This document shows, in pieces, positions 3,057-27,807 of a DNA stretch of 64,000 bases. Both the position numbers and the translations under genes were made by a program. The DNA is taken from positions 1 through 64,000 of the forward strand of contig CANLUC010000004.1 in NCBI GenBank assembly GCA_947494195.1, in the 5' to 3' direction. Numbering within the stretch: the stretch's first letter is position 1; each line of letters starts with the position of its first letter. This stretch comes from an uncultured Nesterenkonia sp. (GTDB lineage Bacteria; Actinomycetota; Actinomycetes; Actinomycetales; Micrococcaceae). The notes under the pieces were generated by a model, which saw only the letters and a program-made list of their open reading frames with translations, was not told the origin of the DNA and did no database searches.

Positions 3057-3689
3057 TCAGGGCTTGATGCCACGCGGGTGATCCGCCCACGGCGCACGCG
3101 CATCGCGCAGCTCTCCCGCTCCGGTCCGCAGCGCATGCAGCGCCAGGATTCCGGTGACTGCGCTGGGGTTATGGATCTGGCCAGCCAGCACCGCCCCCAC
3201 GGCCTCGGCGAGCGGAACCCAGGTCTTTACGATCTCGGCCTCTTCGCCTTCACGTTCGTGCTGCTCTGCCTCTGGGGTCTCCGAAATGCCCTCGGCGAGG
3301 TAGATCCGGATGGCCTCGTTGGATGCGCCCGGAGTGGTGTAGAAATCCACAAGTGTGTGCCAGGTGTCTGCGCTGATATCGGCTTCCTCGTGCAATTCAC
3401 GCACGGCAGCGTCGAGCATCGGCTCGCCGTCCATGTCCAACAGTCCCGCCGGAATCTCCCACATGTTCAGGCGTGCAGGATGGCGGTACTGGTTGATCAA
3501 CAGCACGCGGTCCTGCGCATCGATGGCGAGCACGGCCACCGCACTGAGGTGCTTGAGGAAAGCTCGGGTCAGCGGCTCTTCACGCTCACCGAATACGATC
3601 TTCTCCTCCGCGAGTTCGAAGATCGGCGTTGTCTGCAGGGTCTGCGACTCAGTGATCGGGTGTGACGCAGGGGAATCATGAACGGGCAT
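3057..3689 (-). CDS. NUDIX hydrolase, ADP-ribose pyrophosphatase-like
   Basis: A 210-residue cytoplasmic enzyme that probably cleaves ADP-ribose or a related nucleoside diphosphate sugar. The Nudix box lies at about residues 82-104: G, six residues (LLDMDG), E, seven residues, then RELHEEAD. The usual Gly near the box end is Asp here, and there is one extra residue early in the box. The preceding Y-R-H-P and W-E-I-P-A segments are typical of ADP-ribose hydrolases. The ATG at 3689 is preferred over an upstream frame extension because a -10 box (TACCCT) sits 6 nt before it, indicating a leaderless transcript. Confidence 0.88.
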   Translation of the reverse strand: MPVHDSPASHPITESQTLQTTPIFELAEEKIVFGEREEPLTRAFLKHLSAVAVLAIDAQDRVLLINQYRHPARLNMWEIPAGLLDMDGEPMLDAAVRELHEEADISADTWHTLVDFYTTPGASNEAIRIYLAEGISETPEAEQHEREGEEAEIVKTWVPLAEAVGAVLAGQIHNPSAVTGILALHALRTGAGELRDARAPWADHPRGIKP

Positions 3690-4420: not shown

Positions 4421-6648
4421 GCGGCCTCCTCGATGGCAGGTTTCAGACGACTCAAGCTCCACATCTTACGGCGGCGCACCGCCACCGTGAGAAGCATCAG
4501 TCCCATTACGGTCGTGACAGCAAGTGCTGCGAGATCTACGCCCAGCGAATACAGGTCAGCCCCGTAGATCACATGCCGCAGTGCATCGACCACGTAGCTC
4601 AGCGGCAGGAACGGATGAAGAACCTTCAGCGCGGTGGGCAGCGTCTCCACGGGGAAGGTCCCGCCGGAGGCCACCAGCTGCAGCACCAGCAGGGCGATGG
4701 CGAGCATCTTTCCCGGGTTCCCCAACAGAGTCACGATCCCTTGGAGCAGTGCGGAGAACGCCAGGGAGGTGGCGAAGAGGACCAGCAGGGCCAGCCACGG
4801 GTGGGCCGGGGAGAGTCCCACGCCGAAGACCACAGCGGCGTAGAGCAAGAGAGTCTGGATCAGCGAGAGCAGCACGAATGGGATCCACGACCCTAGCGCG
4901 ATCGACACGGCGGAGGCATTCGAGGCCAGCGCCCGAGGAGAGGTGCTGCGCAGAACCTGCAGCATCACCAGCGTGCCGATCCACAGGGACAGTCCCAGGA
5001 AGAAGGGTGCCATTCCGGCTCCGTAGCTTCCAGCTTCGGCCTGAGAGTCTTGGTCCACCTCCAGAGGATTGCCGATCACCTGAGCCAGCCTGTCGCGCTG
5101 CTCGGCGTCGGGGTTGGGCACCTCTTCGGCACCTGAGTCCAACCCCTCGGCGAGCTCTGCAGCTCCGTCCTCGAGTTCATCGCCACCTTCCGCGGCGTCG
5201 CTGAGTCCGGAGGTGAGCGTGTCCGCCCCCTCCGCCAGAGCGCCGGTGCCCTCCCCGAGTTCCGCAGCGCCTGTGCTGAGTTCACCCACCCCTGCGTCAG
5301 CCTCGGCTGCCCCGGAGGAGAGAGCGGTGGCCCCAGTGCTGAGGTCTTCGGCACCACTGGCGGCGTCGCCCAGTCCGGTCACCAGTGCAGGGATGCCCTC
5401 CGCGAGCGTGTCTGCGCCGGTAGAGAGGTCGGCGCTTCCGGCGCTCAATGCAGCAGCGCCGTCTGCCACATCTCGGGCCCCTTCGGAAAGTTCGTCGATG
5501 GAGTCCTGAGCCGCAGACAGCTCCGCGCGGGAGGCCTCTGCTCGCTGGGCAAGGTCAGCATCCGCAGCGATGCTCGAGACGACGTCGCGCGCCTCCGACT
5601 CCTGCTCCGCGGTGATGACTCCGGCGTCGAGGAGTTCCTGGATAGCGTCCTGACCGGCATCGGAGGTCACGGATTCGACCACGGCCAGGACGTCAGAGGC
5701 GGAATGTGAGGCAGCGGAGAGCCGCTCGTTGCCCTCGGCGACAGATTCGGCGCCAGCACTCAGACCGGAGAGTCCGGTGGACAGGTCTGCGGCGCCGGTG
5801 GAGAGCGCGTCCGCGCCACCCCGGAGCTCCCCCGCGCCGGTCTCCAGGTCGGTCAGCCCGGTATCCAGATCATCGGCGCCGGTGGAGAGCGTCGAGGCCC
5901 CGTCTTTCAAGGCGGTGGTGCCCTCGCCGAGTGTGCCAAGCCCTTCGGAGAGTGCGTCCACCCCCTCATCGGCTGCATCAGCGCCCTCGGCCAGGTCGGC
6001 GGCTCCGGCGTGGAGCTCATCGATGCCGCCGTTCAAGGTGACGATGCCCTCGGAGAGCTCACCCGCGCCGTCGGCCGCCTCGCTGATCTGCTGATGGATC
6101 CGACCAAAGCCAGTCAGAAGCTGATCCGCGGTCTCGGTCCCCACCTGTTCGGCGACGGAATCGTGGACCTCGCCTGCGAGCACGTTGACGATGCTGGAGA
6201 GCAGGAAATTGTTCGCCTCATTGGTGGTGATGCTCAGCGAGGCCTGCTCCGCGGGGGTGGAGGCGGCGTCGAACTCTGCGGGCGAGGCAAGCGCCGCGGA
6301 AAAGCCCTCGGGGATGATCAGCGCGAACTGCAGCTCCCCGCGGGCGACGGCGGCCTCCGCCTCCTCACGGTTGTCGAGCTGCTGCCAGCCGAAGGACTCC
6401 TCCTCGACCAGTTCTTCGGTGACATCGTCGCCGATCGCCATGGTCTCGCCGTCGAAATCTGCACCCTCGTCGAGGTTCACCAATGCGGCTTGGACCTGGT
6501 CAAGGTTGCCGTAGGGATCCCAGTTCGCATACAGGTAGACCCCCGCATAGAGGACAGGGACCAGGGCCAGGCCGATGATGGTCACCAGCGGAGTCAAACT
6601 GCTCGTCAGCCGGACCAGCTCGGAGCGCACCATTCGGAGCAGCCTCAT
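4417..6648 (-). CDS. YhgE/Pip-family membrane protein (ABC-2 permease-like)
   Basis: A 743-residue membrane protein. It has one N-terminal transmembrane segment (about residues 18-40), a long extracytoplasmic region, and about five C-terminal segments (roughly 555-720) like those of ABC-2 permeases. The extracytoplasmic part begins with the family region QAALVNLDEGA and then has many 7-residue repeats of the type (L)STGAADL / LSEGLGTL / LAEGADT, expected to form a long helical stalk. Relatives include the phage-infection protein Pip and type VII-linked YhgE proteins. It sits between an ABC-like gene and a TetR gene, overlapping both by 4 bp. The substrate is unknown. Confidence 0.92.
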   Translation of the reverse strand: MRLLRMVRSELVRLTSSLTPLVTIIGLALVPVLYAGVYLYANWDPYGNLDQVQAALVNLDEGADFDGETMAIGDDVTEELVEEESFGWQQLDNREEAEAAVARGELQFALIIPEGFSAALASPAEFDAASTPAEQASLSITTNEANNFLLSSIVNVLAGEVHDSVAEQVGTETADQLLTGFGRIHQQISEAADGAGELSEGIVTLNGGIDELHAGAADLAEGADAADEGVDALSEGLGTLGEGTTALKDGASTLSTGADDLDTGLTDLETGAGELRGGADALSTGAADLSTGLSGLSAGAESVAEGNERLSAASHSASDVLAVVESVTSDAGQDAIQELLDAGVITAEQESEARDVVSSIAADADLAQRAEASRAELSAAQDSIDELSEGARDVADGAAALSAGSADLSTGADTLAEGIPALVTGLGDAASGAEDLSTGATALSSGAAEADAGVGELSTGAAELGEGTGALAEGADTLTSGLSDAAEGGDELEDGAAELAEGLDSGAEEVPNPDAEQRDRLAQVIGNPLEVDQDSQAEAGSYGAGMAPFFLGLSLWIGTLVMLQVLRSTSPRALASNASAVSIALGSWIPFVLLSLIQTLLLYAAVVFGVGLSPAHPWLALLVLFATSLAFSALLQGIVTLLGNPGKMLAIALLVLQLVASGGTFPVETLPTALKVLHPFLPLSYVVDALRHVIYGADLYSLGVDLAALAVTTVMGLMLLTVAVRRRKMWSLSRLKPAIEEAA

Positions 6649-7238
6649 TGTTGGTCTCCCTTCACCACGGCCAGGACGGCCCGGTCCTGATCTGCGCCGA
6701 GGGCATCCACCAAGCAGGTGTGCAGAGCCTCGGGGGTGATGTCATGCCGGTCGGGAGAATCCAGCACGGCACATCGCACGCGTGGATCGGTGAAGGCCAG
6801 CTCCAGCAGAAGCCACAGACGCGTCTGCACCGAAAGGTCTTCCACCCGAAGATCGGCGAGGTCAGTGGATTCGCGCTCAGCCAACCAGTTCCGCTGGGTC
6901 GATCGACCGCCATTGCCGGTTCGAGGTGTCCGGGGGATCAGGGCGAGAGCTTCGGAGACGGTGTCCCTGACCCGCATGTGGTGCTCTGGCGCGGTGATGT
7001 CTGGGGCGTCCACCAAGGCGGTGTGGCGGCGAAGCGCGCGGGCATCGGAGGAGCCGTTGAACTGCACGGTTCCGTGGTCAGGGTGCATCCGGCCCGAAGC
7101 GATCAGGCTCAGCGCGGTGCGTTCCAGGGCCGTGGGCGCGCTGACCACGGTGACCTCGCCAGTGGGGACCTCGAGGGAGAGGTCCTTGATCAGTGATCGG
7201 CGTGGCTCATCGACGCCGACGTGTTCGAGCAGAAGCAT
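6645..7238 (-). CDS. Degenerate ABC ATPase-like protein paired with YhgE/Pip
   Basis: A 197-residue protein with the outline of an ABC ATP-binding subunit (LLLEHVGVDEPRRSLIKDLSLEV, then GEVTVVSAPTALERTALSLIASGRMHPDHGTVQFNG), but with key residues lost. The Walker A position (about 33-42, SAPTALERTA) has no Gly-Lys, the signature is LSVQTR (135-140) instead of LSGGQ, and the Walker B end reads VLDSPD (158-163) without the catalytic Glu. It is probably unable to hydrolyse ATP and may be structural. The ATG at 7238 lies about 17 bp from the TetR palindrome. It overlaps the next gene by ATGA, so the frame is intact and maintained. Confidence 0.75.
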   Translation of the reverse strand: MLLLEHVGVDEPRRSLIKDLSLEVPTGEVTVVSAPTALERTALSLIASGRMHPDHGTVQFNGSSDARALRRHTALVDAPDITAPEHHMRVRDTVSEALALIPRTPRTGNGGRSTQRNWLAERESTDLADLRVEDLSVQTRLWLLLELAFTDPRVRCAVLDSPDRHDITPEALHTCLVDALGADQDRAVLAVVKGDQQ

Positions 7239-21974: not shown

Positions 21975-22049
21975 GCGTTTTACCCCGTGGGACGTGGTTT
22001 ACCGGGCGCACGGTCTGGCCGGTAGACCTCGAAAGGAGGGGTAAAACGC
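21975..22049. repeat. 75-bp nested dyad element, copy 1
   Basis: The ends GCGTTTTACCCC (21975-21986) and GGGGTAAAACGC (22038-22049) are perfect 12-bp inverted repeats. An inner pair, GGTTTACCGG (21996-22005) and CCGGTAGACC (22019-22028), matches at 9 of 10 positions. Gaps between outer and inner arms are both 9 bp and the centre is 13 bp. It lies between divergent dapB and the DeoR-gal operon. Copies 2 and 3 have exactly the same length. Confidence 0.9.
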
Positions 22050-22123
22050 CAGGAGGGTCTGTTGGAAAGTGTTCACTTGTGTTTGAATGTGATCGTTCGG
22101 TCCGCGCGTCTTGAGGAGGTCCC

Positions 22124-22981
22124 ATGCTCGCAGCTCAGCGCCGTGCTGGGATCGTCTCTCTGCTGGAATCGGCAGGCGGGGTCAGCGTCTCTGAACTGGC
22201 CACGCGCTTCGAGGTCTCGGACATGACCATCCGCCGCGATCTCGAGAACCTCGCGGAGGCGGGGCTCATCGCGAAGGTCCACGGCGGTGCCGTGGCTCCC
22301 GCGGCCGACGCCGCCGCAGCGCGGCGCACGGAGGAGCCTGGGTTCGAGGCCAAATCCGCCCAGATGCTCCCCGAGAAGCAGGCCATCGCAGCCGCCGCGG
22401 CAGAGCTCCTCGCCCCGGGAATGTCCGTCGGGCTCTCGGCCGGGACCACCACCTGGGCCCTGGCGCATCACCTGCTCACCGTCCCCGAGCTCACCGTGGT
22501 CACCAACTCCCCACGGATCGCCGCGATCTTCCACCGCGCCGCCGGTGCGCAGACCGCTGGGCACACGGCTGGGCAGGCCCGTAACACGGCAGACCCGAGA
22601 GTGATCCTCACCGGCGGGGTGCGCACCCCCTCCGACGCGCTCGTCGGACCGATCGCAAATCAGGCCCTGCGCTCGCTGCACCTGGACCTCGTCTTTCTCG
22701 GCACCCACGGCTTCTCCTCCGCCGCGGGATTCACCACGCCGAATCTCGAGGAGGCCGAGACCAACCGCACCCTGCTGCAGTCCGGGGCGCGCGCCGTCGT
22801 ACTGGCTGATCACAGCAAATGCGGCACCACCGCACTGGGCACCTTCGCCCGCCTCCCGCAGATCGACACGCTGATCAGCGACACCGGGCTCCCGGGCCCC
22901 GCGGCCGCAGAGCTGCGCGAGCAGCTGAGGCTGACGCTCGCCGACCCCCTCGTCGACCCCACCCAGACCAGGAGATCCTGA
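22124..22981 (+). CDS. DeoR-family regulator of the galactose operon
   Basis: A 285-residue repressor-type protein. It has the DeoR helix-turn-helix at the N-terminus (RRAGIVSLLESAGGVSVSELATRFEVSDMTIRRDLENLAEAGLIAKVHGGA) and a sugar-phosphate sensing domain (GLSAGTTTWALAHHL, ILTGGVRTPSDALVGP, VFLGTHGFS, LADHSKCG). It overlaps galT by 1 nt (TGATG) and is the first gene of deoR-galT-galE-galK, so it is likely an autoregulated switch for galactose use. GAGGAGGT precedes the ATG. An AT-richer stretch at about 22067-22095 (GTTCAC...GTGATC) may be its operator. Confidence 0.9.
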   Translation: MLAAQRRAGIVSLLESAGGVSVSELATRFEVSDMTIRRDLENLAEAGLIAKVHGGAVAPAADAAAARRTEEPGFEAKSAQMLPEKQAIAAAAAELLAPGMSVGLSAGTTTWALAHHLLTVPELTVVTNSPRIAAIFHRAAGAQTAGHTAGQARNTADPRVILTGGVRTPSDALVGPIANQALRSLHLDLVFLGTHGFSSAAGFTTPNLEEAETNRTLLQSGARAVVLADHSKCGTTALGTFARLPQIDTLISDTGLPGPAAAELREQLRLTLADPLVDPTQTRRS

Positions 22982-24168
22982 TGACCACCGCCCACGAGGC
23001 CCCCGACACCGAACACCGGCGCGCGCACAAGTCCCGCGCGCAGCTGGCTGATGGCCGCGAGATCCTCTTCTTCGATGACGAACCGCGCACCCGGACCGTC
23101 CAGGATCGTCGCGAGATCACCCGGCCCGAGGGTGGCAACGAGATGCGCTATGACCCGCTGCTGCGCGAATGGGTGGCCATCGCCGCCGCCCGCCAACACC
23201 GCACCCACCTGCCCTCTTCCGATCAATGCCCGCTCTGCCCCACCACCGACGACCGCGCCACCGAGGTCCCGCAGGTCGAATACGACGTCGTCGTCTTCGA
23301 AAACCGCTTCCCGTCCTTCCGCGGGGACGTCCCGGTCCCCGCCGACTTCCTGAGCACGACGGCGGCCGCCGAGTCCGCAGGAATCCGCCAGCCCGGCTCG
23401 GGGCGGTGTGAGGTGGTCTGTTTCACCGATGACCACACCTCCCAGCTCGCTCAGGTCAGCGTCACGCGGATGCGCACCGTGGTGGACGCCTGGGCGGATC
23501 GCTCGGAGGCGATGCTGGCCGAGCCCGGAGTCGAGCAGGTCTACTGCTTCGAGAATCGCGGCGAAGAGATCGGCGTGACCCTGCACCACCCGCATGGGCA
23601 GATCTACGGCTACCCGTTCATCACCCCGCGCACCCGGACCCTGCTCGAATCCGCCGCGGACTACCGCGAGCGCCGAGGTGGCGACCTCTTCGCGGACATC
23701 CTGGCCGCAGAGGTCTCCGACGGCCGGAGGATCGTGGCGCGCACCGAACACTGGACCGCGTTCATCCCCGCCTGGGCGCGCTGGCCGGTGGAGCTGCACA
23801 TCTACCCGCACCGTGCCGTGGAGCGGCTGCCGGAGCTCACCGACGCCGAACGGGAGGACTTCGCCGCGCTCTACCTGGACCTGCTCCAGCGCGGGGACCG
23901 GCTCTTCGAGGGCCCGCTGCCCTATATCTCCGGCTGGCAGCAGGCCCCGGCCTCCGCAGAGCCCGGACTGATGCGGTTGCACCTGCAGCTGTTCTCGATC
24001 CGGCGCGCGGAGAATAAGCTGAAGTTCCTGGCCGGCTCCGAATCCGGCATGGGGGTGTTCATCAATGACATCGCACCCGAGGACATGGCCCGTCGGCTGG
24101 TGGACCTGGGCGCGGACGCTGCCGAATCACACAGAGATGCAGAACCACACATGGGGGAGACACGATGA
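22981..24168 (+). CDS. galT: Galactose-1-phosphate uridylyltransferase GalT
   Basis: A 395-residue enzyme of the Leloir pathway that swaps UMP between UDP-glucose and galactose-1-phosphate. The active-site HPHGQIYGYPF, with the nucleophilic second His, is intact, and zinc-ligand segments are seen (QCPLCP near the start; the TLHHPH region). The C-terminal domain has the HIYPHR segment. The first 50 residues, including the repeat-rich EILFFDD region, are typical of actinobacterial GalT. The ATG at 22981 overlaps the regulator stop; a longer upstream frame lies within that gene. Confidence 0.95.
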   Translation: MTTAHEAPDTEHRRAHKSRAQLADGREILFFDDEPRTRTVQDRREITRPEGGNEMRYDPLLREWVAIAAARQHRTHLPSSDQCPLCPTTDDRATEVPQVEYDVVVFENRFPSFRGDVPVPADFLSTTAAAESAGIRQPGSGRCEVVCFTDDHTSQLAQVSVTRMRTVVDAWADRSEAMLAEPGVEQVYCFENRGEEIGVTLHHPHGQIYGYPFITPRTRTLLESAADYRERRGGDLFADILAAEVSDGRRIVARTEHWTAFIPAWARWPVELHIYPHRAVERLPELTDAEREDFAALYLDLLQRGDRLFEGPLPYISGWQQAPASAEPGLMRLHLQLFSIRRAENKLKFLAGSESGMGVFINDIAPEDMARRLVDLGADAAESHRDAEPHMGETR

Positions 24169-25124
24169 AGCTGCTGGTCACCGGAGGCGCCGGGTATATC
24201 GGATCAGTGGTGGTGCAGCAGCTGCTCGCCGGGGGCCACACCGTGGAGGTGCTGGACAACCTGAGCACCGGCCACGCCGATTCCATCCTCGGCGGAGCCA
24301 TCTGGCATGAGGCGGACCTGCTCCAGGCGGGGCGCATCCTGGACTCCAGCTTCGACGGCGTGGTCCACCTCGCCGCGCGCTCCCTGGTGGGCGAGTCCGT
24401 CTCCCATCCCGAGCGGTACTGGCACGGCAACATCGTGGCCACCCTCGCCCTCCTCGACGCGATGCGCGAGGCCGGGGTGCCCCGCCTGGTGTTCTCCTCC
24501 ACGGCGGCCGTCTACGGCGAGCCCGCCGGCGCCAGCATCGCCGAGACCGACCAGACCATGCCGACGAATCCCTACGGCGCGTCCAAGCTGGCGATCGATC
24601 ACATGCTCACCGCCGAGGCGCACGCTCACGGCCTGGCGGCCATCAGTCTGCGCTACTTCAACGTGGCCGGCGCCTCCGGAGAGCTGCGCGAGCGGCACGA
24701 TCCCGAGACTCACCTGATCCCGAATCTGCTCAAGGTGGCCTCGGGGGAGAAGGAGAGCGCGAGCATCTTCGGCACCGACTATCCCACCGAGGACGGCACC
24801 GCCGTCCGAGACTACATCCACGTGCGCGACCTCGCCGAGGGACACCTGCGTGCGCTGACAGCGGCCGTGCCCGGCACCCACGAGATCTACAACCTGGGCA
24901 CCGGCACCGGCACCTCGGTGCGCCAGGTCATCGACGCCGTCCGCGAAGTCACCGGCCGCGAGGTCCCCGCCGTGGAAGAGCCTCGCCGCGCGGGCGACCC
25001 TGCGGTGTTGGTGGCCTCCGGACAGCGCGCATTCGACGACCTCGGCTGGCAGCCCACCCGGGACATCCGCCAGATGGTGGCCGACGCGTGGACCGCACTC
25101 GGCGCGGAAGAAGCGCGCGCATGA
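24165..25124 (+). CDS. galE: UDP-glucose 4-epimerase GalE
   Basis: A 319-residue NAD-dependent short-chain dehydrogenase-type epimerase that interconverts UDP-galactose and UDP-glucose. The N-terminal VTGGAGYIGS binds NAD. The catalytic S-Y-K set is seen as FSSTAAVYG and YGASKLAID, and RYFNVAGA and DGTAVRDYIHVRDLAEGHL follow. Start and stop overlap galT and galK by 4 bp (ATGA), so the three enzymes are made in step. Confidence 0.95.
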   Translation: MKLLVTGGAGYIGSVVVQQLLAGGHTVEVLDNLSTGHADSILGGAIWHEADLLQAGRILDSSFDGVVHLAARSLVGESVSHPERYWHGNIVATLALLDAMREAGVPRLVFSSTAAVYGEPAGASIAETDQTMPTNPYGASKLAIDHMLTAEAHAHGLAAISLRYFNVAGASGELRERHDPETHLIPNLLKVASGEKESASIFGTDYPTEDGTAVRDYIHVRDLAEGHLRALTAAVPGTHEIYNLGTGTGTSVRQVIDAVREVTGREVPAVEEPRRAGDPAVLVASGQRAFDDLGWQPTRDIRQMVADAWTALGAEEARA

Positions 25125-26302
25125 GCTCCGCACCGCTCGCGCTCGCCGGCGCCTTCCAGGAGACCTTCGGCCGACCCAGCGCAGGAATCTGGGCGGCCCC
25201 CGGACGGGTGAACCTGATCGGGGAGCACACCGACTACAACGGCGGGTTCGTCCTGCCGTTCGCGCTGCCGCAGACCAGCCGGGTCGCCGCCGCCACCCGC
25301 AGCGACCGGATCGTGCACGTGCGGTCCCTGCTCAACGGTGAGACTTCCGAGTTCAGTCTGGACGGGTTGCGCCCCGGCGTCGTCGAGGGGTGGGCCGCCT
25401 ACGCCGCAGGGATGCTGTGGTCACTTGAGCAGGCCGGGCATCTGCTCCCGGGAATGGACCTGCTCATCGATTCGGATGTGCCGATCGGGGCGGGGCTGTC
25501 CTCCTCGGCCGCCCTGGAATGCTCCGTCGGCCTCGCCGCGACCGAACTGGCCGGCCTCGAACTCTCCGCGGCTGAACTGGCTCAGCTGGCCCAGCATGCA
25601 GAGAACGACTTCGTCGGGATGCCCTGCGGGATCATGGACCAGATGGCGTCCATCGCCGCGCAGGCCGAGCATGCGCTGCTGCTGGACACCCGGAGCATGG
25701 CGATCGAACACGTCCCCTTCACGCTGGCGCAGGACGGACTCGCGCTGCTGGTCATAGATTCTCTGGCCGAGCACCGGCTGGTCGACGGCGAGTACGCCGC
25801 CCGTCGCGCGCAGTGTGAGACCGGAGCCCGGCAGCTGGGTCTAGAGAGTCTGCGCGAACTCAACGACGACGACGTCGCCCCTGAGGAGCTGTCCGCTCGG
25901 CTGGAGGATCCGGTCATCCTGCGCCGGGTGCGTCACGTGCTCACCGAGAACACCCGGGTGCTCGCGGCTCGGGCGGCGCTGAGCATCGGCGCCTACGCCG
26001 AACTCGGTGAGATCCTCAGTGCCTCCCATGCCTCGCAGCGCGATGACTTCGAGATCACGGTGCCGGAGACCGACACCCTGGTGGAGACGCTGATGTCCCC
26101 GCACCAGGACCACGGGGCCGAGCCCGCGCTCGGGGCCCGACAGGTGGGTGGGGGATTCGGCGGGTGTGTGATCGCGCTGATCGACGCCGACTCCTTCGAC
26201 GGGCTGCTCGGCGCGGTGCAGGAGAACGCCCGCCAGCACGGATTCACCGAACCCACCGGCTTCCTCGCTCAGCCCTCCGCCGGCGCCCACCGACTCAGCT
26301 GA
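25121..26302 (+). CDS. galK: Galactokinase GalK
   Basis: A 393-residue GHMP kinase that phosphorylates galactose at C1. The galactokinase signature (GRVNLIGEHTDYNGGFVLPFALP), the ATP loop PIGAGLSSSAALE and the C-terminal motif GARQVGGGFGGCVIALI are all intact. The ATG at 25121 overlaps the galE stop (ATGA). It ends the gal operon; no galactose transporter is seen nearby. Copy 2 of the 75-bp dyad starts 12 bp after the stop. Confidence 0.96.
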   Translation: MSSAPLALAGAFQETFGRPSAGIWAAPGRVNLIGEHTDYNGGFVLPFALPQTSRVAAATRSDRIVHVRSLLNGETSEFSLDGLRPGVVEGWAAYAAGMLWSLEQAGHLLPGMDLLIDSDVPIGAGLSSSAALECSVGLAATELAGLELSAAELAQLAQHAENDFVGMPCGIMDQMASIAAQAEHALLLDTRSMAIEHVPFTLAQDGLALLVIDSLAEHRLVDGEYAARRAQCETGARQLGLESLRELNDDDVAPEELSARLEDPVILRRVRHVLTENTRVLAARAALSIGAYAELGEILSASHASQRDDFEITVPETDTLVETLMSPHQDHGAEPALGARQVGGGFGGCVIALIDADSFDGLLGAVQENARQHGFTEPTGFLAQPSAGAHRLS

Positions 26303-26314
26303 GCCCCCTCCCCA

Positions 26315-26389
26315 GCGTTTTACCCCCGCGTCTGTGGTCTACCGCCCCCGCCGTGGGGCGGGTATTCCTCGGGAGGCCCGGTAAAACGC
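26315..26389. repeat. 75-bp nested dyad element, copy 2
   Basis: The outer arms GCGTTTTACC (26315-26324) and GGTAAAACGC (26380-26389) are perfect inverted repeats. The inner left unit is GGTCTACC; the inner right unit is decayed (GGTATTCC). It lies between the 3' ends of galK and the convergent acyltransferase-like gene, so here it cannot be a promoter operator for either flanking gene. Confidence 0.9.
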
Positions 26390-26415
26390 GAGGGACACGA
26401 GGGACGCGAGGGACA
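26389..26415. repeat. Three tandem 9-bp repeats
   Basis: CGAGGGACA, CGAGGGACG, CGAGGGACA run directly from the end of dyad copy 2 toward the stop of the leftward gene. They are non-coding. Confidence 0.85.
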
Positions 26416-26420
26416 GGAGC

Positions 26421-27635
26421 TCAGCGACCCGCGACGGCGTTGCCGGCCGCGTGGGTGAGCGCCTCCAACGGGCCGCGTCGGCGCAGCAGGAACCGCAGCA
26501 GACCGGCCGCCAGCGCGCCCAGAATCAGGATCGTGAGCATCTGCGTGGCCGAATACTGCGCCAGGAAGGTCATGAATGCCGGCACCTGGGCCCCGCGCCA
26601 GTAATGGAGCACCACAAGGTGAGCCACATACAGTGTCAGCGGCATCGCGCCGGCGCCGATCAGCGGTGCCAGCAACCAGCGCAGCTTCTCCGCGATCAGC
26701 AGGCACACCCCGAGCACCAGCATCGAGGTGCCCAGGGTGTGGATCAGGTCCATCGTGGAGCCCTGATGCGGGGTGGCCAGCAGGAACCACGCGTTCTCGG
26801 TCACCAGCGGGACCTGGTAGGTCCCGGCGAACAGCTCGGCGCGCAGCTCTGCGGTGGACCAGCCATAGCGGCCCGCCAGCTCGGTGATGAACTCTGACTG
26901 GAAGAGCATCCACAGGTGGACGCCGTAGCTGATCAGCGCCAGCACCAGACCCGTGCCCGCTAGTTTGAGCGCCGTGCCGCTGCGCTGCAGCTGCAGCCGG
27001 CCGATGGCCATGCCGGCGAAGAGGTAGGCGGGCCAGATCAGCAGCGGGTAGTACCCCGTCAGCGCCAGATCCATGCCCAGCAGACCGGGGTCCGCGAGGT
27101 CCGTCAGTGAGGGGGAGTGCCACAGTCTCCAGGTGTCGGGGAACTGCGCCAGGCTGTTGCGCAGATCGTTGTGCAGCCACCAGTACGCCACCGGGGCGGC
27201 AGCCACCCAGACCCCCGCGAGGGCGAACAGCGGGACGGCTCCCAGGCGCAGGAACGGGATCGCGAGCAGGAACAGCAGCCCGTAGTGGACCAGGATGATC
27301 GCCACCCCGGAGTCCAGATACGCGATGAGCAGCCCGATGAGCACCACGATCAGCGCCCGCACCGCGATGGCCTTGCGGTCCCCGGAGAGCTGCGTCTTGG
27401 AGTGCGCCCGTCCGGCGCCGCCGCTGAGCAGCGCCAGGCCGACCCCGGCGAGCAGGGCGAACAGGGCAGAGGGCCGGCCGGTGAAGAGCAGCCCCGCCCA
27501 GGTGGCTTCGTGACCGGGCTCAGAGATGGTGGGCAGCACATGGACGGTCATCATCCCCAGCAGAGCGAGGCCGCGCGCGGCGTCGACTCCCGAGATGCGA
27601 CGGGTGCGTGCGGATGCGGGGCCGGCGGTGATCAC
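26421..27635 (-). CDS. Polytopic membrane protein, DUF418/HGSNAT-like acyltransferase group
   Basis: A 404-residue protein with about ten hydrophobic segments. The opening ISGVDAARGLALLGMMTVHVLP matches the family that includes heparan-alpha-glucosaminide N-acetyltransferase-like and YeiB/DUF418 proteins; later segments (GAGAMPLTLYVAHLVVLHYW) fit their C-terminal part. A role in acyl transfer to a surface polymer is possible but unproven. The GTG at 27635 is chosen because a -10 box (TAGCGT) lies 7 nt before it. A TTG further upstream would add a poor 27-residue extension. Confidence 0.8.
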   Translation of the reverse strand: MITAGPASARTRRISGVDAARGLALLGMMTVHVLPTISEPGHEATWAGLLFTGRPSALFALLAGVGLALLSGGAGRAHSKTQLSGDRKAIAVRALIVVLIGLLIAYLDSGVAIILVHYGLLFLLAIPFLRLGAVPLFALAGVWVAAAPVAYWWLHNDLRNSLAQFPDTWRLWHSPSLTDLADPGLLGMDLALTGYYPLLIWPAYLFAGMAIGRLQLQRSGTALKLAGTGLVLALISYGVHLWMLFQSEFITELAGRYGWSTAELRAELFAGTYQVPLVTENAWFLLATPHQGSTMDLIHTLGTSMLVLGVCLLIAEKLRWLLAPLIGAGAMPLTLYVAHLVVLHYWRGAQVPAFMTFLAQYSATQMLTILILGALAAGLLRFLLRRRGPLEALTHAAGNAVAGR

Positions 27636-27642
27636 AGACCGT

Positions 27643-27648
27643 ACGCTA
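27643..27648 (-). promoter_or_regulatory. -10 box, leaderless acyltransferase-like gene
   Basis: TAGCGT on the minus strand, 7 nt before the GTG at 27635. Confidence 0.5.
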
Positions 27649-27732
27649 CTGCCTCCTGGGTCTCGGCCGGAGAACACCAGGCGCGGAACCCGAAAAAAAC
27701 TTGTCGGCCCCCGCAACCTTTCGGCGGCCGCA

Positions 27733-27807
27733 GCGTTTTACCGCCCGCTACGTGGTTTACCGGCCGGACGGTCCCCCGGGTAGAACACGTACACCCCGGT
27801 AAAACGC
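27733..27807. repeat. 75-bp nested dyad element, copy 3
   Basis: The outer arms GCGTTTTACC (27733-27742) and GGTAAAACGC (27798-27807) are perfect inverted repeats. The inner left unit is GGTTTACCGG (27754-27763); the inner right unit is GGTAGAAC. It lies between the divergent acyltransferase-like gene and dapA, upstream of both promoters. Confidence 0.9.

Follow-up and report, generated by a model that had tools for sequence, protein, structure and literature searches.

A nested dyad element in Nesterenkonia and its probable partner, an AbiEi-DUF559 nuclease

Three nested dyads in the dapB-gal-dapA region

The window analysed here is a stretch of 64,000 nucleotides from an uncultured Nesterenkonia sp. 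(contig CANLUC010000004.1, positions 1 to 64,000), and the element under study is a nested dyad that occurs three times in it, among genes for DapB, a DeoR-type regulator, GalT, an epimerase, galactokinase, an HGSNAT-like protein, DHDPS (DapA) and RNase J. An earlier sequence-only reading had named these genes and located the three copies; names and positions proved correct, and each copy is exactly 75 bp long. The gene that is decisive for the interpretation, encoding a predicted AbiEi-DUF559 nuclease and bracketed by two copies of the element, lies on a contig other than that of the window. The features of the window are as follows.

21975..22049, no strand: dyad copy 1, between the divergent genes dapB (minus) and DeoR-type regulator (plus)
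21975..21984, plus strand: left outer module GCGTTTTACC of copy 1, mirrored at 22040-22049
21993..22003, plus strand: left inner module CGTGGTTTACC of copy 1, 19 bp after the outer module, mirrored at 22021-22031
22009..22015, no strand: central heptamer CACGGTC of copy 1 on the dyad axis (family consensus GAC(G/C)GTC)
26315..26389, no strand: dyad copy 2, between the convergent genes galK (plus) and HGSNAT-like (minus)
26333..26343, plus strand: left inner module of copy 2, mirrored at 26361-26371
27733..27807, no strand: dyad copy 3, between the divergent genes HGSNAT-like (minus) and dapA (plus)
27751..27761, plus strand: left inner module CGTGGTTTACC of copy 3, mirrored at 27779-27789

Copy 2 is separated by 12 and 31 bp from the called ends of galK and the HGSNAT-like gene. 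Pairs of outer arms with a gap of 30-60 occur three times in the window and never in 100 dinucleotide-preserving shuffles, so the three dyads are real and far beyond chance. The unit offsets were also described correctly at the outset, with 19 bp from TACC to TACC and 21 bp from the inner TACC to the inner GGTA.

Family size, placement and conservation

Further copies, which the sequence-only reading had proposed to look for, are present in the genome of origin (2.78 Mb) and in four related species. In the former, 10 copies carry exact outer arms, all 75 bp under the fixed gap of the pattern (reversed-pattern control, 0), 15 are found at up to three mismatches, and 18 with a sequence-only profile (36 palindromic matches). 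The same profile, applied to the top 150 first-look candidates of each genome, gave 18, 21, 18 and 18 copies in the other species (G009, G012, G019 and G024), and 85 of the approximately 93 sites implied by these counts were extracted from the five. The 75-bp register is kept by 82 of the 85, the remaining three, one of them measured by eye, being 74 or 76 bp; in a search across the genus with the gap left free at 45-65, one of the copies listed was 74 bp and the others 75 bp.

By the gene calls of a home-made codon-usage caller, which also served for G050, 69 of the 85 sites are clear of called genes. Ten others reach into a gene by 1-23 bp and another six by 70 bp; all but one of the latter lie at the 3' end of the nuclease gene. 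The question whether copies are always intergenic and of one length is answered with yes for most of them, and with no for the three of deviating length and for those that reach into genes. The sites lie between convergent genes in 36 cases, divergent genes in 17 and tandem genes in 31, with one at a contig end; the five copies at the nuclease gene were here classed as tandem (the script's tally beforehand was 36/22/26/1). The convergent placements uphold the early doubt that a simple operator role could account for the element.

The sites fall into 19 position groups (two of which merge neighbouring sites), of which 11 are represented in every one of the five species and 16 in four or more. 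Orthologous copies are 92-96% identical at the conserved columns and 53-81% at the variable columns, where unrelated copies are 51% identical. This comparison used 18 hand-typed groups and conserved columns derived from the same family, and non-orthologous pairs show the same 95% at these columns. As conserved columns are kept while variable columns drift, each site seems to be held by selection one by one, with the proviso that decayed sites are invisible in such a comparison.

Two sites stand apart in sequence or arrangement. At G000:C2:430402 and its orthologues in G009, G019 and G024, AAAATACC replaces TTTTACC on one outer arm; this variant lies between convergent genes, its spacers look nearly complementary by eye, and it may double as a terminator. 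In locus L110 (G012:C1:327724-337834), elements at 3501-3575 and 6611-6685 are direct repeats with 94% identity over 82 bp. The 3-kb insert between them encodes an ISL3-family transposase and an HSDR_N-type protein, an rve-type transposase lies just beyond, and the corresponding place in G000, G009 and G024 holds a single element. The pair looks like a recent duplication of the element or recombination at it.

A second family was detected with the pattern TCGTAG-N12-TCGTAG, which gave 17, 15, 12 and 10 matches in G000, G009, G024 and G020 and 0-4 in the other 26 genomes; the pattern is noisy (0-7 matches per genome with the reversed control).

Anatomy of the element

A consensus of half-sites and a test of the arms were derived from the 74 of 85 sites scoring above 65. 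Each half reads as a C-rich flank, GCGTTTTACC, N8, CGTGGTCTACC, a GC-rich spacer and GAC, followed by the central G or C and the mirror half. The module GnGnnnTACC occurs twice per half-site, 19 bp apart; the inner unit of the family is better given as CGnGnnnTACC, a GAC(G/C)GTC-like heptamer sits on the dyad axis, and the GC-rich spacers show weak preferences. With both strands pooled, C makes up 61-80% at nine of the ten positions preceding each element; the symmetric signal therefore reaches past the 75 bp.

The two arms of a site match at variable columns no better than arms of shuffled partners (0.496 versus 0.507 +- 0.011), and a pair count over 54 rows (27 sites, both strands) found no excess of covariation, the value being below most shuffles. 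Arm covariation had been named as a test of the element, and its absence runs counter to that forecast; yet it points to a protein on duplex DNA and not against the element, because arms without covariation suggest that no hairpin, in RNA or DNA, has been selected. The element therefore looks like a double-stranded protein site with mirrored modules 19 bp apart rather than an RNA or a cruciform. The fixed length, the kept modules, the drifting spacers and the uncoupled arms agree with the original proposal of a multi-subunit protein site under selection on geometry.

A predicted nuclease gene bracketed by the element

When neighbourhoods were compared across diverged element types, one shared gene emerged, encoding a protein of about 430 residues.

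Own genome C5:63638-64921, minus strand: AbiEi-DUF559 gene, between rimP-nusA and a proS-like gene, outside the window

Of the two elements, one reaches into the 3' end of this gene and the other lies 73 bp before its called start, a distance kept in four of the five species and 107 bp in the fifth. The downstream element (G000:C5:63630-63704) covers the last codons of the gene and is therefore also coding. The neighbours are RimP, NusA, a ProS-like synthetase, TauE and a fifth protein without a Pfam hit, and no AbiEii-type toxin was recognised among these five.

The N terminus of the protein is weakly AbiEi-like (Pfam AbiEi_4, E=7e-5; PADLOC AbiEi, 1e-8). Among 25 homologues at E 0.01, AbiEi_4 was found in seven and DUF559, at the C terminus, in four. 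The presumed catalytic residues E297, D329, E340-x-D342-G-x2-K346 and E365-K are invariant in 25 of 25 aligned proteins, all of which carry the D, E-x-D, K signature of PD-(D/E)XK enzymes; the alignment (A2) was assembled without a strict rule and omits orthologues L159-L161 and loci L164, L167 and L171, the start of L164 being uncertain. The protein is accordingly predicted to consist of an AbiEi-type winged-helix domain and a C-terminal DUF559/Vsr-like PD-(D/E)XK nuclease. An IS200/IS605-like Y1/HUH transposase domain was found neither by Pfam in this protein and the 25 homologues nor by PADLOC in three, the hits of note being AbiEi and DUF559.

With the own protein as query, with which more distant homologues could be missed, tblastn returned none of 50,697 phage records and one of 72,556 plasmid records, a 900-kb Collinsella entry that was matched in part. 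Such a distribution agrees better with a system resident on chromosomes than with a transmissible one. In viral contigs, 64 stretches fit a peptide pattern; none was confirmed as a relative, and no element match was found there.

Dyads follow the protein

At E 1e-6, 28 of the 30 Nesterenkonia genomes have a homologue of some type, but the own-type gene (63-100% identity) is present in six. The same six hold the six best element-profile scores (E 6e-14 or better; next genome 4.6e-9), and in G020 the two strongest element copies bracket the nuclease gene. Across 30 homologous loci, 23 pairs of loci have proteins of 60% identity or more, and in all 23 the dyad upstream of one gene matches the dyad downstream of the other; 15 of the 23 pair up members of the six own-type orthologues. 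Of the 412 remaining pairs, 15 show such a match (6/322, 7/84 and 2/6 by band). As this match tracks protein identity, the dyad follows the protein.

Of the 197 sampled genomes of the class, 115 have a homologue at E 1e-15. A repeat shared between upstream and downstream flanks exceeded the 99th percentile of 309 ordinary control genes (from G012 and G050) at 43 of 59 homologues, namely 18 of 30 in Nesterenkonia and 25 of 29 in other genera. Ordinary genes were taken as the control since mismatched upstream and downstream flanks score high through shared ancestry of the loci (2 of 60 pairs above 200, four more above 36 or nearby). Within a half, direct repeats stand 19 bp apart in 30 of 49 flanking dyads and 18-20 bp apart in 38, with about two expected at 19 bp from shuffled halves; the 49 are the best per flank above the cut-off from 58 loci, which are not independent, some sharing ancestry. 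The sequences themselves differ entirely between homologue types (TGTCCCC, TCATG, TTCCCAC, GTTTCC, GACACCCCC and others), and G029 carries three homologues with three different dyads.

Outside the family, G050, a genome from another family of the order, illustrates dispersal of a different dyad. Its half-site pattern gives 42 matches (reversed control, 0), which form 25 dyads, 23 of them outside called genes. Of nine congeners searched, G181 has four matches and the other eight none; the gene was looked for in two of these eight (g34) and not found at E 1e-15. Arm matching shows no clear covariation here either (0.493 versus 0.461 +- 0.021). On the 3.8-Mb contig G050:C1, the 25 dyads span the stretch from 0.81 to 3.16 Mb and cluster around the nuclease gene at 1.96 Mb. 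Recent dispersal was considered for them and set aside, there being no near-identical pairs among the 25 (maximum identity 0.86).

Dyads with the TACC geometry in other surrounding sequence were also seen in L083 and L089 (a Propionibacterium metagenome-assembled genome) and in L076/L220 (Flavimobilis). The two short Propionibacterium loci yielded no nuclease gene. In Flavimobilis the upstream dyad falls within the longest open frame, and the gene counts as bracketed by dyads on the assumption of a later start codon.

Proposed mechanism and its rivals

From the association of gene and sites, their geometry, dispersal and coupling, the invariant catalytic residues and the site-by-site conservation, we infer that the nuclease binds, cuts and spreads the dyad. 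The explanation we consider probable is that the dyads are duplex binding sites of the AbiEi-DUF559 nuclease, that they bracket its gene, that the nuclease drives their copying and that the sites are selectively kept. AbiEi proteins bind inverted repeats upstream of the genes that encode them; one case has two such repeats, another four (PMC7319586). By this model, each half-site would present two modules head to tail, 19 bp apart, each read by one helix-turn-helix, and facing half-sites would allow up to four protomers to assemble, which the four modules per dyad fit. The upstream copy would act as an autoregulatory operator, as in AbiEi. At dispersed copies the nuclease may assemble and, once dyads are synapsed, cut within or close to one of them. 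On rare occasions, repair that uses another copy might then plant a dyad in a new intergenic place, in the manner proposed for REP-associated tyrosine transposases (RAYTs; REP, repetitive extragenic palindrome) and REPINs (PMC2817692, PMC3116915). A planted site would be kept since damage to it would cost the cell or the system; that the nuclease might punish site loss is an attractive idea for why each site is kept.

Several observations weigh against this explanation. The 16 of 85 copies that overlap called genes are not strictly intergenic. No copy was caught moving in the one empty site and one duplication compared: for the empty site, in G024, the most plausible history is a loss between short GGCG microhomologies, and the L110 pair in G012, beside insertion sequence (IS) genes, is the only recent-looking duplication seen. 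Nine of 30 Nesterenkonia homologues and three of 29 others pass neither the repeat nor the dyad flanking test. The Pfam matches are weak, the sole hit of the own protein (AbiEi_4) being below the gathering score, and a sequence profile found no match for the protein in the PDB. The AlphaFold2 model, built on a two-sequence alignment, has a mean pLDDT (predicted local distance difference test) of 43 and is usable over the nuclease region alone, and the fold matches of that region to I-Bth0305I, Vsr and AbaSI all have E above 0.1 and are not significant. Finally, G024 keeps about ten TCGTAG-type sites although its two detected homologues are both of other types, a natural case for site decay after gene loss.

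This leads to the question whether other explanations serve better. A dyad-gene-dyad unit resembles an ordinary insertion sequence with palindromic ends, the single dyads then being miniature inverted-repeat transposable elements or solo ends, and near-identical copies do bracket the 3-kb insert in G012. Against this, the bracketing sites, and hence the gene, occupy one position in five species, next to rimP and the proS-like gene in the own genome, and most site groups are likewise shared (11 and 16 of 19, as above). The protein has no phage match and one partial plasmid match, the one empty site compared (G024) lacks a target-site duplication, and the internal modules are conserved, not the ends alone; we regard this explanation as unlikely. 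About equally unlikely is that the protein is a global transcription regulator with a vestigial nuclease fold and the dyads are its operators. Autoregulation of AbiEi through inverted repeats (PMC7319586), the 17 sites between divergent genes and the nearly constant distance of the upstream site from the called start would suit a regulator; the 36 sites between convergent 3' ends, the unrelated functions of the few annotated neighbour genes and the invariance of the catalytic residues in 25 of 25 proteins would not.

A little less probable still is a role in chromosome organisation, with matS- or parS-like sites bridged by tetramers. It would account for some 20 sites per chromosome, apparently kept one by one, and for the clustering of the G050 sites at the gene (19 merged sites, mean circular distance 0.140 genome lengths, P 0.0004), whereas the corresponding distance is not significant in G012 (P 0.48) or G019 (P 0.20), 82 of the 197 sampled class genomes have no homologue at E 1e-15, and several dyad families coexist in one genome. 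A function as terminus marker was rejected: the GC skew of G050 and G012 is too weak to place origin or terminus, and in G012 the sites, by inspection, keep away from the region opposite dnaA. Structured RNAs or bidirectional terminators, suggested by the dyad symmetry and the frequent convergent placement, are highly improbable given arms that match no better than shuffled ones, covariation below most shuffles and the lack of any Rfam match on the elements (a tRNA and a thiamine pyrophosphate riboswitch were matched elsewhere in two loci); the structured-RNA alternative of the sequence-only reading is dropped on these grounds. Its two other alternatives, a nucleoid-protein site and a REP-like repeat, were each partly right.

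Should the nuclease and its dyads form such a pair, they would represent a widespread, undescribed class of actinomycete elements, in which a solitary AbiEi-DUF559 nuclease has its own nested dyad, typically with 19-bp spacing, in tens of intergenic copies. It would be an independent second RAYT/REPIN-like solution with duplex sites, a restriction-type nuclease and sites held by selection, possibly because the nuclease attacks site-decayed chromosomes; we hold this wider interpretation to be somewhat favoured by the data. If true, a large orphan protein family gains a DNA target readable from sequence, and chromosomal palindrome-plus-enzyme pairs arose more than once in bacteria. Because most homologues examined carry their own site alongside, the DNA specificity of the family would be predictable and testable in vitro, and very long, rare and modular DNA-binding sites would be on offer.

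Comparison with known systems

Open-access full texts, a search that covered no preprints and few subscription papers, yielded no description of the protein or of the pairing. A DUF559 protein has been described as a Vsr-like repair nuclease in Caulobacter (PMC12907096), in the accessible part of which the word stem 'palindrom' is absent. With the AbiE type IV toxin-antitoxin system (AbiEi, Rv2827c), the present protein shares the AbiEi-type DNA-binding domain and inverted-repeat sites upstream of its own gene (PMC7319586); it differs in the fused nuclease domain, in sites that are also downstream and dispersed, and in the lack of a recognised AbiEii-type toxin at its locus.

Vsr-fold homing endonucleases such as I-Bth0305I recognise a long site. 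The nuclease region resembles the fold of I-Bth0305I (probability 0.95, E 0.21, not significant), whereas the gene here stands between housekeeping genes and the site takes the form of a nested dyad, of which there are about 20 copies. The matS/MatP and parS/ParB systems likewise have tens of palindromic chromosomal sites held by selection; the present sites are much longer, and the nuclease domain, the patchy presence and the several families per genome set them apart.

RAYT genes are chromosomal and single-copy per family. Their repeats often lie beside the 3' ends of convergent or tandem genes, and the likeness extends to a gene bracketed by cognate palindromic repeats, dispersed extragenic copies and more than one family per genome (PMC2817692, PMC3116915, PMC3733652); in PMC3733652 there is no word beginning with 'actinobact'. 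The enzyme differs, however, being AbiEi-DUF559 here and an IS200/IS605-like tyrosine transposase in RAYTs. The dyads are duplex sites of about 60-80 bp with 19-bp module spacing and without compensatory changes, whereas REPs are short tagged hairpins, and the dyads number about 20 instead of hundreds. By eye, the element ends of the 85 copies show neither a GTAG nor a CGTC head. The element and its nuclease thus lack defining features of RAYT/REPIN, AbiE and Rfam families, and by analogy the pair may work like the RAYT/REPIN pairing while sharing neither its enzyme nor its repeat.

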